A stretch of DNA of 34,955 bases, taken from a virus. Shown here one piece after another: positions 7,408 through 33,533 of this stretch. The notes below the pieces were generated by a model, which searched no databases, was not told where the DNA came from, and worked only from the letters and a program-made list of their open reading frames with translations. A program made the position numbers and the translations under genes. The stretch lies in IMG/VR virus record IMGVR_UViG_3300025168_000290, positions 1 through 34,955 of that record. One strand, 5' to 3'. Each line of letters starts with the position of its first letter. Position 1 is the stretch's first letter.

Positions 7408-7776
7408 TCACCAGTATTTGTCTAGACCTTGACTCTCAATTTTTTTGCGTATCGTTCCGAATATATGTTTAGCATGTTCTTCGATATATGTTTCGTAAAC
7501 AAAATTATGATTTAGATAATGACTATAAAATCGCTTATCTAACGTCACTATTATTACGGGAAAAGAGGTTACCCCATCTTCTTCTGTAAATGCTCGTAAC
7601 GTCATCTGTTCACCTAAATCAACTCTATATAAATCAGAAAAGCCTCCACCTGAATCTTTTATCATACCGTCTACCACGGTTAATTCCGTTTCAGGTCTAT
7701 CAATCAATTTGGTTAATTCTGTTTTGATTGCTCTTCTTATCGCTGTTATTTCATCTGTCTCTCTATATACTTTCAT
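7408..7776 (-). CDS. hypothetical replication-operon protein (122 aa)
   Basis: Not recognised. The start at ATG 7776 overlaps the TGA of the Cas4-like gene (ATGA). An upstream in-frame start would extend it into that gene and is less likely. N-terminal half is helical, followed by a beta-rich stretch and a Tyr/His-rich segment (YSHYLNHNFVYETYIEEH). Position between nuclease and primase suggests a replication or repair accessory. Confidence 0.6.
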   Translation of the reverse strand: MKVYRETDEITAIRRAIKTELTKLIDRPETELTVVDGMIKDSGGGFSDLYRVDLGEQMTLRAFTEEDGVTSFPVIIVTLDKRFYSHYLNHNFVYETYIEEHAKHIFGTIRKKIESQGLDKYW

Positions 7777-8786
7777 TCTATGTCCTCCATGTCTATTTCT
7801 GTTTGACTGTCTAAGTTGTTGCCCCACGCAGGGCATAATTCCATGAAACTACAAAATTGGCAACTAGAAACTACGTTTCCTTTCCAATCTGTATAGTTAA
7901 ATGGTTCAGGCTCAAATGAGTCTGTTATGTGCGCTTTTACTAATTTCTTTAGTTTGTTTTGTACTGTTCTAGGTGCATACCTAGTTATTTTTGAGCCAAC
8001 CTCTTCTATTTCCCAGTTGGCTTTATCTCCACCGTTAGCCCATCCTCTAGGGAACTCCCAAGCCCAATGCGTTACTGGCAACCAATCTGAGAACTCTCCT
8101 TCATCCAGCATCAGCCTGTAAAATTGCATTTCTTCTCGCATCTTCTTTGCGGTCTTTTTCTGCTTCCATTTACCAGTTTTTAATTCCATTAATACGAAGC
8201 CACCTTCACCGTCAGAGAAGATGGTATCAATGAATCCGCGTAGATGTACTGGGTATTCTTCACCGTCTACTTCTACATGGATTAGAGCATGTGCTGACAC
8301 CTCGTTGCCTTTGGCTGCCCAGTTAACGCCTCTAGTTACAAGAAACCTATCCCACTGCCAATCAAACCACTGCTGTATAATTTCTTCTTCTCCTAACAAA
8401 TACGGTTTAGGAGGTTTAGGAATTACACTATACATCAAGTCTTTGGCTAACAATTCTTTACTGTCGTCGATAAGGCTCAAGGTTTCATCTATCTTGTCAG
8501 GCGCATAGTCCCAAAAGTATTCTACAATATTGTGTACGTTAGTACCCCTTACCATGTCATCTGTTTCTGCCTCAGACAAACGATAGATGTATTTCATTTT
8601 GTAAGAATAGCCACACCAACCGTGTGCATTAAGAGATGATTTACTGACTCTCAAATGTTTATCCATGTCCGGTTGCCACGCATACAGACTATTGTTGTAA
8701 GACTCTAACAACTGAGGCGTATGAGCCTCAGCCCCTCTATCGCCTAAACTCTCCTTGTTAGGATTGAACTTCATAAACTCACTCAT
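7773..8786 (-). CDS. Cas4/RecB-like PD-(D/E)XK nuclease with predicted 4Fe-4S cluster
   Basis: Probable single-strand DNA exonuclease or end-processing enzyme. Nuclease motifs: RGTNVHNIVE with H85, GFIDTIF with D187, MELKTGK with E201 and K203, and QFY at 221-223. Iron-sulfur cysteines are C58 plus C309, C312 and C318, the one-plus-three Cas4/AddB arrangement. At 337 aa it is larger than Cas4 (about 200) because of an inserted middle region. No cas1, cas2 or CRISPR is nearby, and neighbours are primase and polymerase, so a replication or recombination role is likely. Start ATG 8786 overlaps the TGA of a 45-aa zinc gene. Confidence 0.85.
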   Translation of the reverse strand: MSEFMKFNPNKESLGDRGAEAHTPQLLESYNNSLYAWQPDMDKHLRVSKSSLNAHGWCGYSYKMKYIYRLSEAETDDMVRGTNVHNIVEYFWDYAPDKIDETLSLIDDSKELLAKDLMYSVIPKPPKPYLLGEEEIIQQWFDWQWDRFLVTRGVNWAAKGNEVSAHALIHVEVDGEEYPVHLRGFIDTIFSDGEGGFVLMELKTGKWKQKKTAKKMREEMQFYRLMLDEGEFSDWLPVTHWAWEFPRGWANGGDKANWEIEEVGSKITRYAPRTVQNKLKKLVKAHITDSFEPEPFNYTDWKGNVVSSCQFCSFMELCPAWGNNLDSQTEIDMEDIE

Positions 8787-8920
8787 TCAGAACACCCCTC
8801 ACATTTTAACGCTGAAAGCGCTCTTCGGCAGTTAGGACAAGTAGGTACACCTTTTACCATATAGATACCCTTCTCGCCTTGCCACCCGCAAAAACATTTT
8901 ACTATCTGAAACCTAGTCAT
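8783..8920 (-). CDS. small zinc protein (45 aa)
   Basis: ATG 8920 follows the TAG of the preceding gene directly, and its TGA overlaps the Cas4-like start. Cysteines C9, C11, C28, C31, C40 and C43 form CFC, CPNC and CEGC groups, so it probably binds one or two zinc ions. It is short and basic; function unknown. Coupling on both sides supports expression with the replication genes. Confidence 0.7.
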   Translation of the reverse strand: MTRFQIVKCFCGWQGEKGIYMVKGVPTCPNCRRALSALKCEGCSE

Positions 8921-9154
8921 CTATTCTTTCTCCATTTTTATATCATCGAGTAGATTATCAATTTCAATATCTTGTTCGCTTGTTGCTCCGCAATCATCAC
9001 ATCGCATTTCTAAAATTATCCAACCTTTATCAACAGCCTTGTCGGGGTATCTCCAACCTTCGCAATAACTATTTTCATGTTCGCAATCATCAGGCACACC
9101 ATCTAGATGCGCATGGTCTGCTGCTGTCATTCCATCAGGGTAGTTGCTACTCAT
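8921..9154 (-). CDS. small zinc-binding acidic protein (77 aa)
   Basis: Start chosen at ATG 9154 (Met-Ser-Ser), two bases after the TAA of the MazG-like gene; a farther in-frame start would overlap that gene by 80 bases. Cysteines 24, 31, 52 and 55 (the last pair as CDDC) could bind zinc. It ends in an acidic tail whose TAG touches the next ATG. Otherwise not recognised. Confidence 0.65.
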   Translation of the reverse strand: MSSNYPDGMTAADHAHLDGVPDDCEHENSYCEGWRYPDKAVDKGWIILEMRCDDCGATSEQDIEIDNLLDDIKMEKE

Positions 9155-9156
9155 TC

Positions 9157-9348
9157 TTACTCTTCCTCCAACATTATCAATTTTTGCAAATATATTGCTA
9201 GGTCTAAAGCCTCTTCCTGTGCATGGATTAACCATGCTTTTCTTGTCAAGTCAACTCTTTCCATTGTTGTGTTATACTTGCGTTCACCAATTTCTGCTCT
9301 TGCAGTTATTTTTTCTATCACTCTATCTTCTATCTTACTCATTTTCAT
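9157..9348 (-). CDS. MazG-like nucleotide pyrophosphohydrolase-type protein (63 aa)
   Basis: Pattern GERKYNTTMERVDLT then W-x-x-HAQEEALDLAIYL matches the small phage MazG-like family, with metal-binding E45, E46 and D49 in EExxD. Family members hydrolyse dNTPs to dNMP and PPi, or are reduced relatives of unknown activity; at 63 aa this is a minimal form that would need to oligomerise. ATG 9348 shares a base with the PolB TGA (TGATG). Location right after PolB suits a dNTP-pool role. Confidence 0.6.
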   Translation of the reverse strand: MKMSKIEDRVIEKITARAEIGERKYNTTMERVDLTRKAWLIHAQEEALDLAIYLQKLIMLEEE

Positions 9349-11732
9349 CACCAATGTTTCTTCGGCCTTTTAGCCCCAACAGCCGCATCTAAATCCCAAT
9401 CTAGTACGCTGTAAATATTCTTAATTTTCCTTGTGATAAACTTTTCAACACAGGTATTGTAGTCGATAACGAAATCATCAATCTCATCTACTGTCCTAAA
9501 ACCTACTACGTTAGTATGTACCATACCATCAGGAGACGCTTTTGTGTAAACCCATTGTAGGCTATCTCCCACTTTGAAAGGCTCTCTAGGGTTGATATGT
9601 TCATTATAGTAGTAAGCGCCTCTTACTGGCATAGGAGGCACACGTGCATATTTTTCTTTACCTATGCGACCATATGGTGCAAGTTCTTCCGCACCTTTTT
9701 CGCCCTTAATTACAGATAGTGCAATTGGTCTGATGAAACTTGTAACCTCATCTTCCTCAGCCCCAGTGCCTATCATATTGAAGATTCGCCCTTGTACCTG
9801 TTTGGTGATAGGAGATACGCTGGATGCCTTATATGAGAAGCCAGTAACTTTCAGTTGCCCCTTCTTCTCAGGAGGCCACACAAAGATACCGAAGTTTTGA
9901 TTCTTCACATCGGCAGTCAACCAGTAATCAAAATACGCCTCTAGTTCAATTTCCATAGAAGGTAAATCAAATCTTTCTCGTATTATCTTATTCAAATCAC
10001 TTACATGAGTGTCTATTTCATCGAATGGTATCTGTATGTAACCGGAGTCTGTGTGCCCAGCAAGCGCTCTGTATCCCGCTTTCTCACTTTCTAAGAGTAA
10101 AGTATTGATACATTGCCTACCGTAATATGTAATCGTAGCGCCGATGTCAGGGTCTATCCACCCACCGCCAACGGCCTTCTGAGATACATACCCATACACT
10201 GCATTTGTAGCCACTTTAACAGCCGTCTGCATCATGTTGTATTGTAGCCGCTCTTCGTCAGTTTTTGCCGCTTTCAACAGAGCCTTATATTCTGCACGCA
10301 GTTCTAACATGCTAGAGATAATAGTAGGTATCACTCCCTTCTCATTAGACCAGTAAGTACCATTAGGAACACTACGTATACCGTCTCCACCGTGTCTCAT
10401 CTTAGTAGTAACACAAAGATTTGCGTCTACTATCAGTATAGGATACATAGCCTTGAAATCAATACAAGCGACACCTCTATGTCTACCTCCAACAGTGTCA
10501 GGTACGTTAGCGGCAGCATACTCTTCTCTTTGCCTATTGTATGTTGTTACAGCCTTCAAATCAGTTTCACGTGAAATTAATCCTCTGATATAATTGGATA
10601 CATTGCACGTACTTCTGAAAGATACACCGCAGTGTTTTTGCATAGCAAGATGATACGGTATAGCCTTCACCTTCTCAGTACATTTTCTAAGAAGTGTAGT
10701 ATCACGCACACAGTAATCGACAAACTCATCAAAGTTATCTATCCACCATGTGAATACATCTGCATCCATCTTAGCGCCCTCTTCACCAAACTCTTTGTCT
10801 AATTCTAAATCTTCTGCAATAGTAGCCAACTTCTTATTTCTAAATTGACCGTTGCCACTCTTCTGCCACATAGCCTCAAGACCACTACCTTTCTCCCAAG
10901 ACAGCGCAGTATCGTAACATAGTCTACCAAGTATAGGTTGACTGTTCTCTCTGTATCCATTTTTCTTGTGAGGTCTTATCACTTGTCTAACAGGACTAAG
11001 CCTCTCAGATTCATTACCCAACCTTCTAATTAATTGTGGAAGGTCAGCCCATAAAATACTGTGTGCCACAAGCATATCGGGGTCGCACTCTTCTAAGTGT
11101 TCTAAGAACGCCTCATGCATAGCGCCTTCATCTTTACACATATACAGCATATAGCCGCTTTCCCTATCAATAAAATCAATGGTAGGTGTGTCAATCCCAT
11201 CACTCTTCCAAGCGAATACTACCGGATATTCTGCGTGCGTATCATCAATAGCAATCATTGTAGTAGCGCCCTCATTAGGGCATCCTTCCGGTTGCCATTC
11301 CATATCGAAATACCATATTCTAGGTTGAAAGTCAGGTATGTCTTTTGCCTTAGGATACATATGTTTGATTAACATATCATTGTAATTGATATCGGCTTCA
11401 TAAGTTCGTATTTCATTCCTAATATCATATAGATGCGCTGGATTAGGAACATCGAATCTCATTAGAGGAACACCGTCTAAACCAGTAGCAGTAATATCGT
11501 ACCTAACTCTAGTGCCCGGATACCTAGCCACTACTCTACTTATTCTCCTAGCGTGTGTATTAGCAGCAATCCAACAGTGACACGGCACATATGTGCTGAA
11601 ATCAATATCAGCATCATTAGGGTCTATGGTTAATTCAACTAAAGAACCGTTAGTTCCTCTATGCCTCATATAGACATGGGGATAGCCTACTCCCTCCCAC
11701 TCATCTTCGGGATAGTAATAATCAATTATCAT
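9348..11732 (-). CDS. family B DNA polymerase with 3'-5' exonuclease
   Basis: Replicative polymerase, 794 aa. Exonuclease motifs: YFDMEW with D143 and E145, HSILWADLP with D230, and YCVRD with Y340 and D344. Polymerase motifs: A is DFKAMYP (D425), B is KVATNAVYGY (from K506), and C is AGHTDSG (559-564) where YGDTDS is usual. The first motif C Asp is His560, while the metal-binding second Asp (D562) is kept. A later GFSYKASSV corresponds to the KxY region. Start ATG 11732 overlaps the TGA of a zinc gene. Encoded in the same operon as RFC, PCNA-like clamp and primase. Confidence 0.95.
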   Translation of the reverse strand: MIIDYYYPEDEWEGVGYPHVYMRHRGTNGSLVELTIDPNDADIDFSTYVPCHCWIAANTHARRISRVVARYPGTRVRYDITATGLDGVPLMRFDVPNPAHLYDIRNEIRTYEADINYNDMLIKHMYPKAKDIPDFQPRIWYFDMEWQPEGCPNEGATTMIAIDDTHAEYPVVFAWKSDGIDTPTIDFIDRESGYMLYMCKDEGAMHEAFLEHLEECDPDMLVAHSILWADLPQLIRRLGNESERLSPVRQVIRPHKKNGYRENSQPILGRLCYDTALSWEKGSGLEAMWQKSGNGQFRNKKLATIAEDLELDKEFGEEGAKMDADVFTWWIDNFDEFVDYCVRDTTLLRKCTEKVKAIPYHLAMQKHCGVSFRSTCNVSNYIRGLISRETDLKAVTTYNRQREEYAAANVPDTVGGRHRGVACIDFKAMYPILIVDANLCVTTKMRHGGDGIRSVPNGTYWSNEKGVIPTIISSMLELRAEYKALLKAAKTDEERLQYNMMQTAVKVATNAVYGYVSQKAVGGGWIDPDIGATITYYGRQCINTLLLESEKAGYRALAGHTDSGYIQIPFDEIDTHVSDLNKIIRERFDLPSMEIELEAYFDYWLTADVKNQNFGIFVWPPEKKGQLKVTGFSYKASSVSPITKQVQGRIFNMIGTGAEEDEVTSFIRPIALSVIKGEKGAEELAPYGRIGKEKYARVPPMPVRGAYYYNEHINPREPFKVGDSLQWVYTKASPDGMVHTNVVGFRTVDEIDDFVIDYNTCVEKFITRKIKNIYSVLDWDLDAAVGAKRPKKHW

Positions 11733-11914
11733 TCAACCACCAACCAATCATTTTTCTCAACCATAACTCCACACCCACCAAGACTATGATTACTCGGACC
11801 GCAAGTTGAAGCACCCCAAGAAAAATGATAGACTCTTTTTACATGATTACAGTAAGGGCATTGAATGTCTTTACCGTTTTTACCTGCTCTAGTATATCTA
11901 TTGACTGTGTTCAT
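11729..11914 (-). CDS. small zinc-finger protein (61 aa)
   Basis: Cysteines C19, C22, C38 and C48 with nearby His (CPYCNHVKR... STC... GGCG) suggest one zinc site. ATG 11914 overlaps the TGA of a 56-aa gene and its TGA overlaps the PolB start, so it is translationally coupled to the polymerase. Function unknown; possibly a polymerase- or DNA-binding adaptor. Confidence 0.7.
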   Translation of the reverse strand: MNTVNRYTRAGKNGKDIQCPYCNHVKRVYHFSWGASTCGPSNHSLGGCGVMVEKNDWLVVE

Positions 11915-12081
11915 TTCTCTGCCTCCAATAACTGGTTGATTATCCCTCGGTAGTATGTGGCTTCTACCCGCAACCGCTTGATTTCTGTGAGCAGGTCAGG
12001 AACATACTCTGCCAAATGTTGTTGATTATCTTTGTCGCCCATGAACCAATCTGCTTCTTGTTCTATCTTCTTTATGTTCAT
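11911..12081 (-). CDS. small helical phage-type protein (56 aa)
   Basis: Recovered between PolB's zinc gene and the PCNA-like gene. It starts at ATG 12081 and its TGA overlaps the next ATG. Contains VPDLLTEIKRLRVE, the D-L-L-x-E-I-x-R-L-R-x-E coiled element common in small phage ORFs (Ead/Ea22-like C-termini), and shared with two genes near the right edge. Probably forms a short coiled coil; role unknown. Confidence 0.65.
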   Translation of the reverse strand: MNIKKIEQEADWFMGDKDNQQHLAEYVPDLLTEIKRLRVEATYYRGIINQLLEAEK

Positions 12082-12089
12082 TCTTCATC

Positions 12090-12857
12090 TCATTCCTGTT
12101 GGTCTATAATTATCAATAAGCGCTTTACCATATTATCAGATTGTCTTACCACTAAACCCACAGAATCACCAAAGTGTATCCTTGACACCATCTTAGGATT
12201 AACTAAACCTAAACATGGAAGAAGCCAAGGACCGAAACTAGAGGACACTGAATGCTTTGGTCCTTCTGCCTCTCTCAGTTCACTTGTAGCAAATAATTTG
12301 ACATCGTGGGCTTTACCCACAGATATTGTAAGTTCAGACGAATCCGCATCAGCAGTCAATTTGTAGTCAGAATCCTTGTTAACTATCGATTTCAATGTCG
12401 CTAACTTGAGTATGTCTGTCATCTGAGTTTTACCTTTCAAAGTGTAAGTGTCTTGACCGAAGGATGCCCATTCAGCCTTCTCCGCCTTCGCTACTAATTT
12501 CTCAAACGTAGGTACTAACTGACTACTCTTCATATCGGTTACAGGTATATTCATTTTCATCTTACCGCTTGTAATATAGACAGTCTTTCCACCTTTAATT
12601 TGTTTAATCGTAACAGGTCCAGCACACTTGCTAATAAAAGCGCAGGTTTTACCCAAGTCTGATATATTCAGCGTGCCTTCTTTAGCAAGCGCATCGGGGT
12701 AGTGGTAGTACACTTTCAAGAAATGTGTTTGGTAAGCAGCGCTGTATCCTAAACAAGTAGGATTGACCATGACGTTTACATTCAAATCATTCATGTTGCT
12801 ATCAAATTGACCTAAATGGCTTAACCATTCTTTCTTGTCTAGTGTCATCTGAGCCAT
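12090..12857 (-). CDS. probable PCNA-like sliding clamp
   Basis: A 255-aa protein of the length typical of archaeal PCNA (about 245-250) with alternating beta-strand patterns throughout. The C-terminal segment (SSSFGPWLLPCLGLV... VSRIHFGDSVGLVVRQ) fits the PCNA layout of helix, strand carrying low-charge residues, then final strands. No diagnostic short motif is visible, so the call rests on size, strand pattern and context among RFC, PolB and primase. If correct it tethers PolB and is loaded by the RFC encoded at 16168-17172. Confidence 0.6.
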   Translation of the reverse strand: MAQMTLDKKEWLSHLGQFDSNMNDLNVNVMVNPTCLGYSAAYQTHFLKVYYHYPDALAKEGTLNISDLGKTCAFISKCAGPVTIKQIKGGKTVYITSGKMKMNIPVTDMKSSQLVPTFEKLVAKAEKAEWASFGQDTYTLKGKTQMTDILKLATLKSIVNKDSDYKLTADADSSELTISVGKAHDVKLFATSELREAEGPKHSVSSSFGPWLLPCLGLVNPKMVSRIHFGDSVGLVVRQSDNMVKRLLIIIDQQE

Positions 12858-28376: not shown

Positions 28377-28400
28377 TTCAATCTCGGTTTATATAGTCAA
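28377..28400 (-). promoter_or_regulatory. conserved 24-bp TATA promoter, copy 5
   Basis: Identical element between the stop of the 192-aa gene at 28408 and ATG 28359, which is 17 bases past its end. Drives the thirteen-gene unit to 22505. Confidence 0.8.
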
Positions 28401-28407
28401 TGTTCTT

Positions 28408-28986
28408 CTAAGCGAACTCGACCTCTACTCCCACTCTTTCTGCTGCTTCTAGCGCCCTGTCATCATTATGATACACTGTCTTAGGTAAGTACATTATACT
28501 CTCTACATCCCAGTAATCGCCTGATAATGCACCATCCCATGCTAAACGCATAAGTGCGGGTGTAGAATGTGTTGCTTTTTCTAAATCAATGGTAGGTATA
28601 CCATTCGCATCAATTAAAAATGGACTTAAACCCACTATTCTCACATCCATGAAGGCAGGGTCATCTCTAATTGAATATTCTAATGCTGAGAAAAATCCAG
28701 CAGGTATCCCATATATTTCTGCCAATTCATTCCAAAGAGACACCATACATATAGAATCTACAACATTAGTTTGTAACCCCCAACCTACATGGTGAGCGAG
28801 ACTATCATCATTTTGTATGCGTAAAGTTGCCTGTATTTCTCTTCTATCTGTAATCATCTTAGCAGTACGCTCAGGTATAGCAAACGTAACATTAGGGTGT
28901 TCCATGTTCAATTCTTGGGCTACTAATCTAAGAGAAGCCCAAATATCATTCAGTACGTGACCTTTAGGGAATGGTGCTTTACTCAT
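28408..28986 (-). CDS. hypothetical protein (192 aa)
   Basis: Not recognised. Starts Met-Ser-Lys overlapping the TGA of the upstream gene. Alpha/beta pattern with LSPFLIDANGIPTIDLE and HHVGWGLQTNVVD. Last gene of the dikinase/phosphatase unit, so it could be a component of that pathway. Confidence 0.65.
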   Translation of the reverse strand: MSKAPFPKGHVLNDIWASLRLVAQELNMEHPNVTFAIPERTAKMITDRREIQATLRIQNDDSLAHHVGWGLQTNVVDSICMVSLWNELAEIYGIPAGFFSALEYSIRDDPAFMDVRIVGLSPFLIDANGIPTIDLEKATHSTPALMRLAWDGALSGDYWDVESIMYLPKTVYHNDDRALEAAERVGVEVEFA

Positions 28987-29261
28987 AATTCCACCATCTT
29001 TCCGTCATGAATACGCCCCGGTGAACCCTTCCAATTCTCTTGGTTGAACATTGCCCACATATTTACCATGGCACTGAAGTTCGCCTCACTGTAATCTACG
29101 ACAACGAATATTGTGCCGCTCTTCATATGTATATCAACGTTGAAGTTATTATACGCAGTTCTTTTCATTGACTTGTTGGAAGGGCGGCGAACCATTGCCA
29201 CTACCTCGGTCATTACTATGTATGCTTCTCCTGTCTGTGTACTACATCGCATGTATGTCAT
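28983..29261 (-). CDS. hypothetical protein (92 aa)
   Basis: Start chosen at ATG 29261 because it overlaps the TGA of the 52-aa gene (ATGA). Beta-rich small protein (IFVVVDYSEANFSAMV) reminiscent of small phage regulators, not recognised. Its TGA overlaps the 192-aa gene's ATG. Confidence 0.6.
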   Translation of the reverse strand: MTYMRCSTQTGEAYIVMTEVVAMVRRPSNKSMKRTAYNNFNVDIHMKSGTIFVVVDYSEANFSAMVNMWAMFNQENWKGSPGRIHDGKMVEL

Positions 29262-29416
29262 CCAACCACTTCCCATTCAACATCTATACTTACATAATTT
29301 TCGGGATTATCTTTGACATAATCCATGTAATCATCGATGCTTTGGTTCAATAAATCATCCGCTTCAATCTCTATTATTTCATTAGTTTTTATCTCTACTC
29401 TTACCTTTATACTCAT
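29258..29416 (-). CDS. small acidic beta protein (52 aa)
   Basis: Recovered between two called genes, with ATGA overlaps at both ends (ATG 29416, TGA 29258-29260). Begins SIKVRVEIKTNEIIEIEA, an alternating strand pattern, then an acidic helix. No family recognised. Confidence 0.65.
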   Translation of the reverse strand: MSIKVRVEIKTNEIIEIEADDLLNQSIDDYMDYVKDNPENYVSIDVEWEVVG

Positions 29417-29808
29417 TCTTTCACCTCGTCTGTTGTGAATGGTAACTCATCTGAATCTACAATAAAACCTGCTTTTTCTGCAAAAGAAAGCAGTTGTTTA
29501 ACACCGTTAGAAAGTGGGTGTAAGTTCAATACAGCACCGTTTGGATGATTAGCGGGCGTGCCGGGTATGAATAACTGCGGTACTTTGTTACTGTATCTGA
29601 TGATTTGAAACGGTGTGTAAGCGAGAGTGTTAGAAGCGGCTGACTTAAGCACTGGTGGTTGTTCTTTTAACCACATACTAACCTCAGTTGTAGTGCGCAT
29701 CTTGGTCGCAAAACCGTACTCTCTTCCTTGATTCACCGTTTTCGACACACCTTGTACGTGTATCAAACCGTTATCATAATTGCATTTTACCTGTAATCTT
29801 TCTTCCAT
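29413..29808 (-). CDS. hypothetical protein (131 aa)
   Basis: Not recognised. Starts two bases after the phosphatase gene. Mixed beta/loop protein with FIPGTPANHPNGAVLNLHP in the middle. Sits in the phosphatase-dikinase transcription unit. Confidence 0.6.
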   Translation of the reverse strand: MEERLQVKCNYDNGLIHVQGVSKTVNQGREYGFATKMRTTTEVSMWLKEQPPVLKSAASNTLAYTPFQIIRYSNKVPQLFIPGTPANHPNGAVLNLHPLSNGVKQLLSFAEKAGFIVDSDELPFTTDEVKE

Positions 29809-29810
29809 TT

Positions 29811-31049
29811 TTATTCCTCCAGTATTTCTCTTTCTTGCCTTCCTATAAACTTCATACCTTGTATGAGGCTACGGGATTCGACTATGTTTTGTGTGGTCTT
29901 TTTCATAGAAACGATGTCATCTTCATCTCTTTTTAGTAAGTGTATAGGTATGTATTTGTTACCTATTTTGATAGTAGTGACACCCTTCTGATTTCTTCTA
30001 ATACTCATACCTCTCCTTACTGCCTCACCTACATAAGAGACTGACTTATCATACATCTCTATGTTATGGTACATCTCATCAGTGGCTAAACAAAGTCTAG
30101 TCTTATTACCACTAAGGAACTCTCTATCAACTTGTACAAAACCACCATCAAAACCACATGAACTACAAGGTGTAGTGAACGTGTTCCTATCTGCTTTACG
30201 CCATTCGTTATGGTGGCAATCACAACACTCAACGATAGTCCAACCCTTTTCAATAGGGGAACTTACTTTGTTATCACTACCAAAGGGTATACGCTCAACA
30301 TCGTCAGCAAAGAAATCATCAAGGGTATGTTTCTTAGGATTATTGCCCTTACCTTTCTTAGCAGCAGCCTTTGCTTTCTTAGCAGCAGCCTTTGCTTTCT
30401 TTTCTTCTCTCTCAATCTTTACTTGCTCTGCTCTCAACTCATCTTCTGTTAGAAGATTATCAGCAGTGTAATCGAAGTTACTCCATTGTGGCTGCGTGAC
30501 TACAATTGCAGAGTCACCCTCAGGTATACCACACACATCTGAGATGTATGTTTGCTGTGATTTTGCTTCTACTGCATGTTCACAAAAGTTACCACGAACC
30601 CACTTTATAAGGTCGTATGCGTTCTTCCATTCATGCTTTGCTTTTGGTATCATCAAGTGGGCAAGAATAGCCAACTGCACGCCAGTTCTACCATGACCGC
30701 CCATACACTGAGTAGATATTGATTTGATATTTTTAGTCTCAATATCCTCAACCAATGCTTTCCACCATGATGGGCCTAAGTTACTAGGAATGCTGTAATC
30801 AGGCCAATCAATCTCCATAACAATAGGTGTATCACCACCCACTAATGTAGACGATGACTTCCAACCTTCCGGTAATACGTCAATAGTTCTTGCACTGTGT
30901 ATCACACCGATTGGCCCTAGAGCCAAGTCAGGTACAGGTGACATCTTGTGCCAACCACCATTCCTATTCGTTCCGCCAGCATATACTTTGACACCCTTTG
31001 CCTCAAAGACAAGGGGATTGCCTGTATGACATCCGTCTTTACTACCCAT
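29811..31049 (-). CDS. protein-tyrosine/dual-specificity-phosphatase-like protein with C-terminal zinc ribbon
   Basis: 412 aa. The catalytic signature QCMGGHGRTG (C115, R121) is the PTP CX5R(T/S) loop, with a WPD-like general-acid loop DWPDYSIP at 81-88 before it and SQQTYIS later. A Lys/Ala-rich linker (residues 217-235, built from a 21-bp duplication) then leads to a zinc ribbon C275/C276-x-C278 and C295-x2-C298 and a further basic domain. It should remove phosphate from protein, RNA or nucleotide. It directly follows the dikinase-like gene with no gap, suggesting a phosphoryl-transfer pair. Confidence 0.75.
   Translation of the reverse strand: MGSKDGCHTGNPLVFEAKGVKVYAGGTNRNGGWHKMSPVPDLALGPIGVIHSARTIDVLPEGWKSSSTLVGGDTPIVMEIDWPDYSIPSNLGPSWWKALVEDIETKNIKSISTQCMGGHGRTGVQLAILAHLMIPKAKHEWKNAYDLIKWVRGNFCEHAVEAKSQQTYISDVCGIPEGDSAIVVTQPQWSNFDYTADNLLTEDELRAEQVKIEREEKKAKAAAKKAKAAAKKGKGNNPKKHTLDDFFADDVERIPFGSDNKVSSPIEKGWTIVECCDCHHNEWRKADRNTFTTPCSSCGFDGGFVQVDREFLSGNKTRLCLATDEMYHNIEMYDKSVSYVGEAVRRGMSIRRNQKGVTTIKIGNKYIPIHLLKRDEDDIVSMKKTTQNIVESRSLIQGMKFIGRQEREILEE
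30354..30395 (-). repeat. 21-bp tandem duplication in the phosphatase linker
   Basis: Two adjacent identical 21-bp units (30354-30374, 30375-30395) encode the repeated Lys/Ala linker of the phosphatase-like protein, preserving frame. Confidence 0.85.
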
Positions 31050-33491
31050 TCATTTTTCCTCCTTCAATAATTTTAATACTTCCTCAGTCCACTGGTTGTT
31101 GTCAGCCATTTGGTTACTCAGGAACTTGCTCATCAGGTCAGACAATAGGCCATAAGCGGCATCTAATTTATTCAAACCATTCCACCCATCTATCCACATC
31201 TTCGGTGTGACATCGGCATACTTCTTCTCTCTAAGTAAAGATGCAACTGCATAACTATCGACAGACGATACTTCTTTACCACCGGCCATGAACACCTCAG
31301 GGTAAGTGGTAGACAATAACTGAGAGCCTACATTACCATACTTTAGATTGACAACTAAGACATCATTCTTGATACATAATTCACATGTACTAATACCACA
31401 TGGAACATAACTTTCCTCAGTTGAGTATTTGTTATTGTAGTGTAGTAGTTTAGGTCCACATGCTATTGATGCATTCCTAATTGACTCAGGCACATCTAAA
31501 TCACTAGCGATGAAATGTTGACGGAAGTAGGATGCACCTTTACCGTTTAGGAAACCAAATATTTCTACCCAATCATTAGTGGGTGCTTTGTTACCTTTGT
31601 TTGCATCACCATCAAGGAACTCTCTTGCTAACTCATAGGTTCTAAACATATATGATAAAGACTCAGGTGAATGGGAGAATAGTCCCTTCTGATTACCTGC
31701 ACTATCTACATGCATTGTACTGTAATCAAAGGCTTTTCTGCTTAGGAACTTGTTATACAAGAAGCCACCATTGTGTTCTAGGTTCTTTGCTAGATTCACT
31801 TCACCTATCAAATCGTTTAGTGTTTCTTGATTTGGCTCTGCTAAGAATACATTCACACTCTTACAAACATCAGCCCCTCTTGATGCACATGCACCCCAGT
31901 TAGCACCACCAAAACTTGTGTGTGTGCCCCAACCAGTAGAGAACTGTTTCTTACACCATCTCAAAGCCATTTCCATTTCAACTGTATCTAAGTTTAGTTG
32001 CTCAAGTAAAGCATAGTAATGTTGTCTTGTATTACCAGCGTGCTTTTCTCCTGACAACTCTTCCCATTCAGTTTCACCCATAATTGCTGTTAAGGTAGGC
32101 CAAAGGTCTACACAAATATTCTTTTTGTTACCTTGAGAATATCTCATCTCACCTAGTGAGAGAGCAAGGATAGCCTTAACCATCCAACCAACGAAGCCAC
32201 CTGCTAAGTAAGCAGTCTCTATACCATTGTAGTTTAGCCCAACCCATTGGTGGAAGAAGTGAGCAAACCATCCCTGTTGTCTTTGCCAGTGTGTCTGTGA
32301 ACGTAGTAGTCCAGCCTTGAATGCCTCGATGTATTCAGGTACACATGGGTTGTAAGGTTGAGGTACGATATCCCAATTAGGGTCAAGTGCAAGCCATGTT
32401 TGTGAACCTTCTGTAAACCTATCACCCACGTTTACTTCACCTACTATGTATGGTATACTATGCTGTCTTGCATGAGCGCAAATGTGTGACATAAGAGAGC
32501 CAGTTGGATGAGATATAACAAATCCATCAGGGCATAAGTCTCTTGTGATGTTGGCTTCTAACCACGCCACTTCTTCCAAACCTGATGCAGTCCACACTTC
32601 TTTGGCTTCACATCTCCCAGTTGAGCCAGCACTACCATCTATGTTAGCAACACGCTCAACACCGTTTTCATCTATGTAGGTAAAAGGTAATTCTCTAGGT
32701 GGATTAGGGGGTGAGCCACGTATCTGTGTAATGAAAGGTTCAGAGCCACCGCCCATTTTTCTCTTGAAGTCCTCATCTCTTTGATAGACAAACTCTAACT
32801 CATAGTTAGTTGTCTTGGTGGATGTATCAAACTCACAATTAGGATTAACCATGTGTATGTCGTTTGATAGATATGTTTGTTCAGGATTCAGTGCGAAGTA
32901 TAACATTCTTCCAGTCTCTTCATTGATACCTGCTGTGATACCATCGTGACCCTCAGCAACAGCCGCAAACTGTTGAGGCGCAAGCACACAACTAGATGTG
33001 GCGTTGATGAATGGTTGTAGAATTAGGCTACCCTTAGGGTCATGCTCTTCCATACTTTTAACTAACTTTTTCCAAGAATCTTCTAGTGTCTCTTGTGTAA
33101 CACTCAAGGAATCTAAGACACCATGTCTAGCCGTTAGAGGACATGTACGGAGGAAAGCAGTCTTACCATCCTCACACTTAGGTAGTAGTCTATCGAAAGC
33201 GGATTGAACTACCTCGTATGTATCTGTGAGTAATATTAATTCTGTCTTAGGTGGCTTCCATCTAACCTCACCTGAATTGTAGTGCATCTGATACTTTATC
33301 GCATCACTTGCCTTCTGAGAAGTACATAGTATTCTTCGCTCTTGGCTAATTGTACTGAACTGTATACTGCTCTTCTTCACTTGCTTTGCATTTGTTTCTT
33401 TGGCCGTGTTGAAGAAGTCTGCGAACAGTTCTTCTACACTCATACCTTTGGTGTCATCATCTTTTGTCTCATCGTCTTTTGTCATCGTCAT
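31050..33491 (-). CDS. PEP-utiliser/dikinase-like protein with phosphohistidine swivel domain
   Basis: 813 aa. Residues 330-352 read TGSLMSHICAHARQHSIPYIVGE, as TG..xSH..A.AR...IP.IVG, the PEP-utiliser/PPDK swivelling domain with phospho-accepting H336. The N-terminal half has FLRTCPLTARHG around 113-124 and GSLILQPFINATSSCV at 154-169, similar to the ATP-grasp of PEP synthase and rifampicin phosphotransferase. The C-terminal 430 residues are not recognised and contain CGISTCELC. It may transfer phosphate from ATP via His336 to an unknown acceptor. Acidic N-terminus (TKDDETKDDDTK). First gene of promoter 6. Confidence 0.6.
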   Translation of the reverse strand: MTMTKDDETKDDDTKGMSVEELFADFFNTAKETNAKQVKKSSIQFSTISQERRILCTSQKASDAIKYQMHYNSGEVRWKPPKTELILLTDTYEVVQSAFDRLLPKCEDGKTAFLRTCPLTARHGVLDSLSVTQETLEDSWKKLVKSMEEHDPKGSLILQPFINATSSCVLAPQQFAAVAEGHDGITAGINEETGRMLYFALNPEQTYLSNDIHMVNPNCEFDTSTKTTNYELEFVYQRDEDFKRKMGGGSEPFITQIRGSPPNPPRELPFTYIDENGVERVANIDGSAGSTGRCEAKEVWTASGLEEVAWLEANITRDLCPDGFVISHPTGSLMSHICAHARQHSIPYIVGEVNVGDRFTEGSQTWLALDPNWDIVPQPYNPCVPEYIEAFKAGLLRSQTHWQRQQGWFAHFFHQWVGLNYNGIETAYLAGGFVGWMVKAILALSLGEMRYSQGNKKNICVDLWPTLTAIMGETEWEELSGEKHAGNTRQHYYALLEQLNLDTVEMEMALRWCKKQFSTGWGTHTSFGGANWGACASRGADVCKSVNVFLAEPNQETLNDLIGEVNLAKNLEHNGGFLYNKFLSRKAFDYSTMHVDSAGNQKGLFSHSPESLSYMFRTYELAREFLDGDANKGNKAPTNDWVEIFGFLNGKGASYFRQHFIASDLDVPESIRNASIACGPKLLHYNNKYSTEESYVPCGISTCELCIKNDVLVVNLKYGNVGSQLLSTTYPEVFMAGGKEVSSVDSYAVASLLREKKYADVTPKMWIDGWNGLNKLDAAYGLLSDLMSKFLSNQMADNNQWTEEVLKLLKEEK

Positions 33492-33509: not shown

Positions 33510-33533
33510 TTCAATCTCGGTTTATATAGTCAA
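33510..33533 (-). promoter_or_regulatory. conserved 24-bp TATA promoter, copy 6 (dikinase/phosphatase unit)
   Basis: Identical element 18 bases upstream of ATG 33491; a GGAGGGAAC ribosome site lies between. It heads the dikinase-like/phosphatase unit. Confidence 0.8.

Follow-up and report, generated by a model that had tools for sequence, protein, structure and literature searches.

A dikinase-like protein, a predicted PTP-type phosphatase and an uncharacterised domain form one candidate phosphotransfer module in magrovirus-like viruses and tailed phages

Here we describe a viral module that combines a divergent dikinase (DK), a predicted phosphatase of the PTP type (PTP) and a component with no assigned function (X, phrog_20946), and that occurs in two architectures, split into separate genes in phages and with DK and X fused in magroviruses. 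It was analysed in a 34,955-nucleotide stretch of viral DNA (IMG/VR record IMGVR_UViG_3300025168_000290), hereafter the window. In a structure model, residues 46-371 of DK fold as an ATP-grasp domain followed by a phosphohistidine swivel with the predicted carrier H336, and by profile comparison its C-terminal region ~439-583 is homologous to X. The explanation that we prefer, and consider somewhat more probable than all others together, is that the virus encodes an acceptor-specific phosphotransferase along with a phosphatase that serves it. No description of a PPDK-PTP-X module was found in the openly licensed literature searched. The original prediction noted no described archaeal virus system of this form, but the novelty is not confined to archaeal viruses: many tailed phages of bacteria, and a podovirus, have the same DK/PTP pair together with X.

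Placed by its gene content and strand layout, the window represents a magrovirus-like virus (ocean, archaeal host). It encodes PolB, a clamp loader, a chaperonin and, by a weak match, an archaeo-eukaryotic primase, and its replication and structural genes lie on opposite strands, in agreement with the Magrovirales genome features used for comparison (PMC10768690). Magroviruses are uncultured. An ORF check returned the 813-aa and 412-aa frames exactly as claimed before, with 0 bases between the DK stop and the PTP start (Table 1). The element previously called promoter 6 at the head of this block is real, being one of six perfect copies of a 24-bp repeat, TTGACTATATAAACCGAGATTGAA, all on the minus strand, with 0 expected in shuffles. 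The other identical copies lie at 28377, 22493, 19529, 17184, and 5388, and the next copy downstream of the block is that at 28377-28400. Bacterial sigma-70 promoters are rarer in the window than in shuffles, as would be expected if the repeat is a promoter of the archaeal TATA type. Among 20 magrovirus-type contigs picked by DNA polymerase, 15 carry both DK and PTP, 5 carry neither and 0 carry one, so that 20/20 contigs have the two genes together or lack them together, in line with the anticipated co-occurrence. In all five of the five large relatives, the pair lies on the PolB strand, opposite TerL. Co-occurrence of the genes further downstream, also proposed at the outset, was found for the 131-aa protein throughout the magrovirus-like loci and only in close relatives or a part of the relatives for the 97-aa and 192-aa proteins, respectively. 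No match to the 131-aa protein turned up in the module as it occurs in phages, and none of the downstream magrovirus genes could be linked to the conserved siphophage neighbours.

Table 1. Features of the DK-PTP block in the window
Feature	Position	Strand	Evidence
DK, dikinase-like phosphotransferase fused to domain X, 813 aa	31050..33491	-	ORF, relatives, structure model
Predicted ATP-grasp (nucleotide-binding) domain of DK, residues ~46-263	32703..33356	-	fold match
Predicted phosphohistidine swivel domain of DK, residues ~316-371	32379..32546	-	Pfam sub-threshold, conservation, fold match
Predicted carrier His336 of DK swivel	32484-32486	-	motif, conservation
Domain X (phrog_20946-like) of DK, residues ~406-590; statistically aligned core ~439-583	31722..32276	-	profile comparison
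C-terminal tail of DK, residues 591-813	31053..31721	-	invariant H684, C698, C703, C706
PTP, predicted PTP/DSP-type phosphatase with C-terminal zinc ribbon, 412 aa	29811..31049	-	profile matches, alignment
PTP catalytic loop CMGGHGRTG, residues 115-123	30681..30707	-	alignment
WPD loop of PTP, residues 82-84, general acid D84	30798..30806	-	alignment
CxxC...CxxC zinc ribbon of PTP, residues 275-298	30156..30227	-	alignment
131-aa protein of uncharacterised kind, immediately downstream of PTP	29413..29808	-	12/12 magrovirus-like loci
97-aa uncharacterised protein, DK-PTP transcription unit	28983..29276	-	kept in close relatives only
192-aa uncharacterised protein, DK-PTP transcription unit	28408..28986	-	kept in part of relatives
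24-bp TATA-type promoter repeat at head of DK-PTP block	33510..33533	-	repeat search, shuffles

The swivel motif of DK, TGSLMSHICAHARQHSIPYIVG, contains the S335-H336 pair noted in the original prediction, and this pair is invariant among the relatives. The proposed profile check gave a match of DK to Pfam PEP-utilizers that lies under the cut-off (E=0.1, 12.6 bits; 0.0085-0.011 for relatives), and in a profile-profile comparison of the DK N-terminal domain with phage PPDKs the swivel alone was matched, weakly (E 0.02-0.04). At the sequence level, the DK alignment retrieved nothing relevant from among solved structures, and PADLOC and NCBIfam searches gave no meaningful match for DK, PTP, or X. 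Because the profile-profile link was weak, we turned to fold comparison, using an AlphaFold2 model of DK of moderate confidence (pLDDT 71.6, pTM 0.70). Its top structural match is rifampin phosphotransferase (RPH; PDB 5hv3), with Z 12.5 over 268 residues of model region 46-371 at 3.5 A; PEP synthase (2ols, Z 9.3), PPDK (1kbl, Z 9.1, model 46-376), and HpeI (Z 8.3) are matched as well. Model residues 46-263 correspond to the ATP-binding domains of RPH, PEP synthase, and PPDK, and thus the ATP-grasp-like segments read earlier are borne out by the fold, although neither Pfam nor profile-profile searches detected this domain by sequence profile alone. Residues K60, R115, E231, E233, Q256, and R258, conserved in all full-length relatives, are the proposed catalytic residues of DK according to hand-aligned motifs, and PPDK residues K22, R92, E323, Q335, R337, and H455 have proposed equivalents in DK. 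Invariant H684, C698, C703, and C706 in the tail form a possible zinc site. The module explanation leaves the last 220 residues of DK unaccounted for.

PPDK and PEP synthase have ATP-grasp and swivel in the same order as DK; unlike them, DK has a much shorter ATP-grasp domain in magroviruses and no PEP/pyruvate-binding TIM barrel, the region ~439-583 being X instead. RPH (PDB 5hv3; PMC4844700) and DK share the ATP-grasp and His swivel fold, a substrate domain unrelated to pyruvate, which is predicted in DK, and the conversion of ATP to AMP and Pi, which is expected for DK. The domain order is ATP-grasp, His, X in DK and ATP-grasp, RIF-binding domain, His in RPH; no rifampin-binding domain separates ATP-grasp from His in DK, where the His domain follows directly (H336 of 813), and X could not be linked to the RIF-binding domain by any search made. 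We know of no obligate PTP partner of RPH. The two-component hydroxyphenylethanone kinase HpeHI (PDB 9goj; PMC12167813) is another dikinase-family enzyme with a non-pyruvate acceptor, as is proposed for DK; unlike the module, it is catabolic and cellular and has neither a phosphatase nor X.

The earlier reading of a two-gene system was correct as to DK and PTP but had overlooked domain X. In hhalign, alignment A4 and the 54-sequence X alignment gave Prob 97.4 and E 1.1e-11, and the C-terminal part alone matched X with E 2.4e-12, against 0.02-0.03 for one-side-reversed controls. The X HMM recovers the DK of locus L022 (E 4e-9, 13 sequences searched), and a fusion protein of a Manatee Spring podovirus, for which no relatives were found in IMG/VR, matches DK across most of its length (E 1.6e-16). 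The core E-x-R-[HY] ... GGxxW ... HNxGxxxxK ... D is shared by X and DK, and their models have corresponding helices. X itself gives a confident, helical model, for which Foldseek found no match in the PDB at E<=0.001 (best VIA Z 3.5), a result that does not by itself prove a new fold; by sequence, the X alignment likewise found nothing relevant among solved structures. X has many invariant polar residues: R111, E112, R114, H115, D208, H215, N216, N222, K223, D240, and Q242.

Phages of Vibrio, Stenotrophomonas, Rhizobium, and Rhodobacter encode X as a gene of its own, next to a 'PPDK' that lacks the TIM barrel and to one or two PTPs. These siphophage neighbourhoods hold the same three components as the window and differ in that X is separate and PTP usually doubled (PPDK-like, PTP1, X, PTP2). 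Among IMG/VR loci, PTP adjoins X in 80/80 and PPDK lies upstream of X in all 60 of the 60 with room, with the three genes on the same strand, and the linkage of X recurs in 7/7 loci within cellular genome contigs. All 39 annotated phage records with PTP belong to genera that also have PPDK and X. Of the phage PTP ORFs, 73/76 for PTP1 and 77/78 for PTP2 have an intact loop, the remainder being short or split. As an exception to the linkage, one huge phage with X yielded no PPDK or PTP. It is the homology of X together with its linkage to PPDK and PTP in phages that unites the split and fused architectures in one module.

The phage protein has been published as an auxiliary metabolic gene in vibriophage vB_VneS_J26, in an account that includes a structural comparison with PPDK (PMC12038007), and a genuine pyruvate phosphate dikinase making or using PEP would agree with that comparison and with the strong PPDK_N and PEP-utilizers matches of the phage proteins. 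We nevertheless regard this as highly improbable, and PPDK as a pyruvate enzyme was rejected on domain content. The match of phage PPDK to TIGR01828 covers positions 2-512 of 865 (480 bits, cut-off 843), PF02896, the pyruvate-binding part, is unmatched in phage and window proteins, and the tail after the carrier His comprises 147-293 residues instead of about 420. A label of PEP synthesis is therefore unfit, since the pyruvate-binding half is missing and X stands in its place. The near-obligate pairing with X and PTP also argues against it. Of the PPDK loci with 3.2 kb of downstream sequence, 54 have X, and all of these encode a short tail, whereas X occurs in 0/9 loci whose carrier His is followed by about 420 residues. 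Counting against such a domain replacement, X is missing from the PPDK-like loci L189 and L192, whose tails fall short of full length. In the portions of the accounts of DLP3 (PMC7326821) and vB_VneS_J26 (PMC12038007) that deal with PPDK, it is read as a metabolic gene or merely listed, unconnected to PTP or X.

The PTP gene carries every element first read in it. C115 and R121 of the Cx5R loop CMGGHGRTG and the acid D84 are invariant in 11 aligned relatives, W82-P83-D84 is invariant within the magrovirus set, and the zinc-ribbon cysteines 275/278/295/298 are invariant in 7/7 magrovirus sequences. PTP matches phrog_17568 (E=1.9e-13) and the structure of PTP CRYP-2 (E=1.4e-6). The thymidylate synthase label of phrog_17568 was rejected, as the sequence is that of a PTP. 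With its Cx5R loop and WPD acid intact, PTP is a predicted phosphatase, and the pairing of predicted phosphoryl transfer and removal in one operon is supported.

PTP/DSP enzymes often act on phosphoproteins, and the extra zinc ribbon of the magrovirus PTP could bind a macromolecule; still, we consider it unlikely that DK and PTP are the opposing kinase and phosphatase of a switch acting on a protein of the host or the virus. We know of no dikinase-family enzyme that phosphorylates a client protein except via a phosphohistidine relay (PTS EI), the substrates of DSP-type PTPs also include glucans, lipids, and RNA ends, and the present data point to no target. Glucan water dikinase phosphorylates a hydroxyl and a SEX4/laforin-type glucan phosphatase of the DSP/PTP fold removes the phosphate, the same add/remove logic as proposed for DK and PTP. 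Unlike that system, the module is viral and operonic and has X as a third component, and no carbohydrate-binding domain was found in it. The strict DK-PTP adjacency would also suit a single self-limited enzyme, with PTP resetting a phosphohistidine or regulatory phosphate on DK rather than opposing it, and plant PPDK, regulated through phosphorylation next to its carrier His, offers a precedent. This seems very unlikely, given that the window DK has Met334 (GSLMSH) where PPDK has the regulatory Thr and that phosphohistidine is not a typical substrate of Cx5R PTPs.

An acceptor-specific phosphorylation, probably reversible, is what we propose for the module. Judging from the fold, the conserved motifs, and how PPDK, PEP synthase, and rifampin phosphotransferase are known to work, the ATP-grasp domain of DK would convert ATP to AMP and Pi and leave the beta-phosphate on His336. 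The swivel would then move the phosphate to domain X, which occupies the place of the pyruvate-binding TIM barrel of PPDK; X, a predicted acceptor domain in view of this domain replacement and of co-occurrence, would hold a non-pyruvate acceptor and receive or activate the phosphate. PTP, as its co-occurrence and intact catalytic residues suggest, would take the phosphate off the DK/X product or by-products. The many invariant polar residues of X look catalytic rather than just binding, and phage PPDK also matches models of the prodigiosin ligase PigC/RedH over its ATP-grasp and swivel parts. These observations would fit a ligase-like activation, in which phosphorylation by DK would prime an X-bound substrate for condensation by X or another protein and PTP would clear dead-end phosphates. 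We hold it to be quite unlikely, as the archaeal and bacterial versions share a phosphatase as their constant third partner but no constant second-substrate gene.

Returning to the preferred acceptor-specific phosphotransferase, we conjecture a universal acceptor, for instance a nucleotide, nucleic acid, or common metabolite, because the module sits with replication genes and occurs in hosts of two domains of life. In its fullest and more tentative form, the proposal is of an undescribed viral system of reversible phosphorylation that the magroviruses of archaea have in common with the tailed phages of bacteria. Its phosphohistidine carrier, derived from PPDK, may feed a virus-specific, all-helical acceptor enzyme X, possibly of a new fold, that would modify a universal target (an essential cofactor, a nucleotide, or nucleic acid), and a PTP dedicated to the system would complete the cycle. 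The module joins three separately annotated phage families, the 'kinase' PPDK, a 'thymidylate synthase' so labelled in error that is a PTP, and the uncharacterised protein X, and the link between them is provided by the archaeal fusion. Published phage 'PPDK auxiliary metabolic genes' are thus probably not PEP makers, and since the module is present in cultivated phages, its acceptor is open to direct search.

Judged on profile searches alone, the dikinase identity of DK, the 813-aa protein, would be doubtful: matches to the Pfam PEP-utilizers family, which the original prediction had proposed from a motif, were present in DK (12.6 bits) and in its relatives (E 0.0085-0.011), but all of them fell under the curated cut-off. 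The fold is settled by an AlphaFold2 model built from 12 related sequences (pLDDT 71.6, pTM 0.70), whose residues 46-371, spanning the predicted ATP-grasp and His domains, align with the rifampin phosphotransferase (RPH) structure 5hv3 (Z 12.5, 268 residues, 3.5 A), as well as with PEP synthase and pyruvate phosphate dikinase (PPDK), in agreement with the dikinase-like assignment. Foldseek by itself ranked generic ATP-grasp ligases at the top. For RPH, the functions of K22, of R117 and of the carrier His have been described (PMC4844700), and the putative DK counterparts of the PPDK/RPH functional residues, mapped by hand alignment, are kept in all full-length relatives.

The 412-aa product of the adjacent gene is a genuine PTP, as had been proposed: C115-x5-R121 and D84 do not vary across its magrovirus and phage relatives, and it matches phrog_17568 (E 1.9e-13) and solved PTP structures (best E 1.4e-6). 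The PHROG label of this PTP family nevertheless reads 'thymidylate synthase', and is repeated in phage records, e.g., NC_042082 and OX411389. The predicted boundaries of both genes stand, with zero gap between them, the PTP start codon immediately following the DK stop codon. The promoter said to head the block, TTGACTATATAAACCGAGATTGAA, is found six times without a mismatch, always on the minus strand (0 expected by chance), and the block begins 18 bases past one of these copies. Since the next downstream copy is found only at 28377-28400, DK, PTP and the three following genes probably form a single transcript; the six copies would similarly split the window into co-transcribed blocks. The closest relatives have this same TATA element ahead of DK, and among the fetched loci the 12-bp core is confined to them.

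Features of the window, DK residues mapped by hand alignment, and selected other loci
Feature	Position	Strand	Remark
DK, 813 aa	31050-33491	minus	
PTP, 412 aa	29811-31049	minus	
131-aa unknown protein	29413-29808		2 bases downstream of PTP
24-bp TATA-type promoter repeat	5388, 17184, 19529, 22493, 28377, 33510	minus	TTGACTATATAAACCGAGATTGAA
Archaeal-type chaperonin (Cpn60/TCP1) and family B DNA polymerase	804-2309 and 9348-11732		
DK lysine	K60		putative counterpart of K22
DK arginine	R115		within FLRTCPLTARHGVLDS, cf. SVRSGAPVSMPGMMDT
DK glutamates	E231, E233		proposed functional counterparts
DK Gln and Arg	Q256, R258		cf. LQTR
DK histidine	H336		putative counterpart of carrier His
L028 (LR756511.1, 595-kb phage)	7587-12598		two tandem X-like-domain proteins
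L189			PPDK-like, 785 aa; one PTP; no X downstream
L192			PPDK-like, 757 aa; no PTP; no X downstream

In 12 IMG/VR loci retrieved by means of DK, this gene is immediately followed, on its own strand, by PTP and then the 131-aa gene. Among 20 large contigs picked by DNA polymerase homology to avoid selection on DK, 15 carry both DK and PTP and five carry neither, in line with the predicted co-occurrence; these counts are not independent draws, given the adjacency of the genes and the incompleteness of the records. Five large relatives place the pair with the replication genes, on the PolB strand and opposite the terminase. No relative of the 131-aa protein was detected in phage modules, and it may be an archaeal-virus-specific partner. 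The chaperonin and polymerase of the window are consistent with a magrovirus-like virus, an assignment based on gene content and contig organisation.

A tblastn search of annotated phages identified a divergent DK-PTP pair in Manatee Spring podovirus genomes, and, in siphophages of Vibrio, Stenotrophomonas, Rhizobium and Rhodobacter, PTPs whose neighbourhood includes genes labelled pyruvate phosphate dikinase. In the siphophages, phrog_20946 (X, annotated as function unknown) sits between two PTP genes, PTP1 and PTP2. By hhalign, DK matches X through its C-terminal part (E 6.6e-10 with four X sequences, 1.1e-11 with 54); that part alone gives 2.4e-12, against 0.02-0.03 in one-side-reversed controls, and an X HMM matches the DK of locus L022 (E 4e-9, 13 sequences searched). 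Both share the motifs E-x-R-[HY], GGxxW and HNxGxxxxK. These comparisons show that the C-terminal part is homologous to X, so the magrovirus DK is a fusion of what are two genes in siphophages. X has more than 20 invariant residues, many charged or polar; its model is all-helical and confident (pLDDT 93.9), with no match in the PDB (best Z 3.5).

With X alone as the starting point, PTP adjoins X in 80/80 IMG/VR loci, two PTPs being present in 73; a PPDK-like gene lies upstream in all 60 loci with enough sequence (75/80 overall). The genes share one strand, usually in the order PPDK, PTP1, X, PTP2, then DNA polymerase I, and the PPDK-PTP-X arrangement recurs in 7/7 loci on cellular genome contigs. 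A small protein family ~1.2 kb upstream of X, between PPDK and PTP1, occurs in 51 of the 80 loci (L029-L108); one representative member gave a weak hit of CsrA type (E 0.002). In the reverse test, X was found in 54 of 65 PPDK-started loci that had 3.2 kb or more of downstream sequence. Nine loci without X or PTP encode proteins with ~420 residues after the carrier His (full-PPDK length), compared with 147-293 in X loci; the two others without X, L189 and L192, are possibly intermediates or different systems. Annotated phage records contain this PTP in 39 cases, X in 41 and a PPDK match in 56, the surplus coming mainly from unannotated Listeria, Enterococcus and gut contigs, plus Bacillus phage G. 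The X-like proteins of L028 (E 1e-17 and 1e-13) occur in a record where PPDK and PTP matches, sought throughout, were not found, so X may work independently of both.

One published report takes the phage PPDK gene for an auxiliary metabolic gene that forms PEP (PMC12038007); another lists the gene and does not comment on it (PMC7326821). Against the PPDK equivalog model, the phage product aligns over positions 2-512 and no further, scoring 480 bits where the cut-off is 843, and the PEP/pyruvate-binding half is absent from it and from the magrovirus DK. A better reading is that the carrier half was retained, the pyruvate half swapped for X, and PTP added. Within the dikinase fold family, the acceptor (rifampin, phenols, glucan or pyruvate) is set by the remaining domain; by analogy, X most likely holds the acceptor or acts on it. 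The carrier half would pass phosphate toward this acceptor, and PTP would strip phosphate from the product, paralleling SEX4, which removes phosphate after glucan water dikinase has acted.
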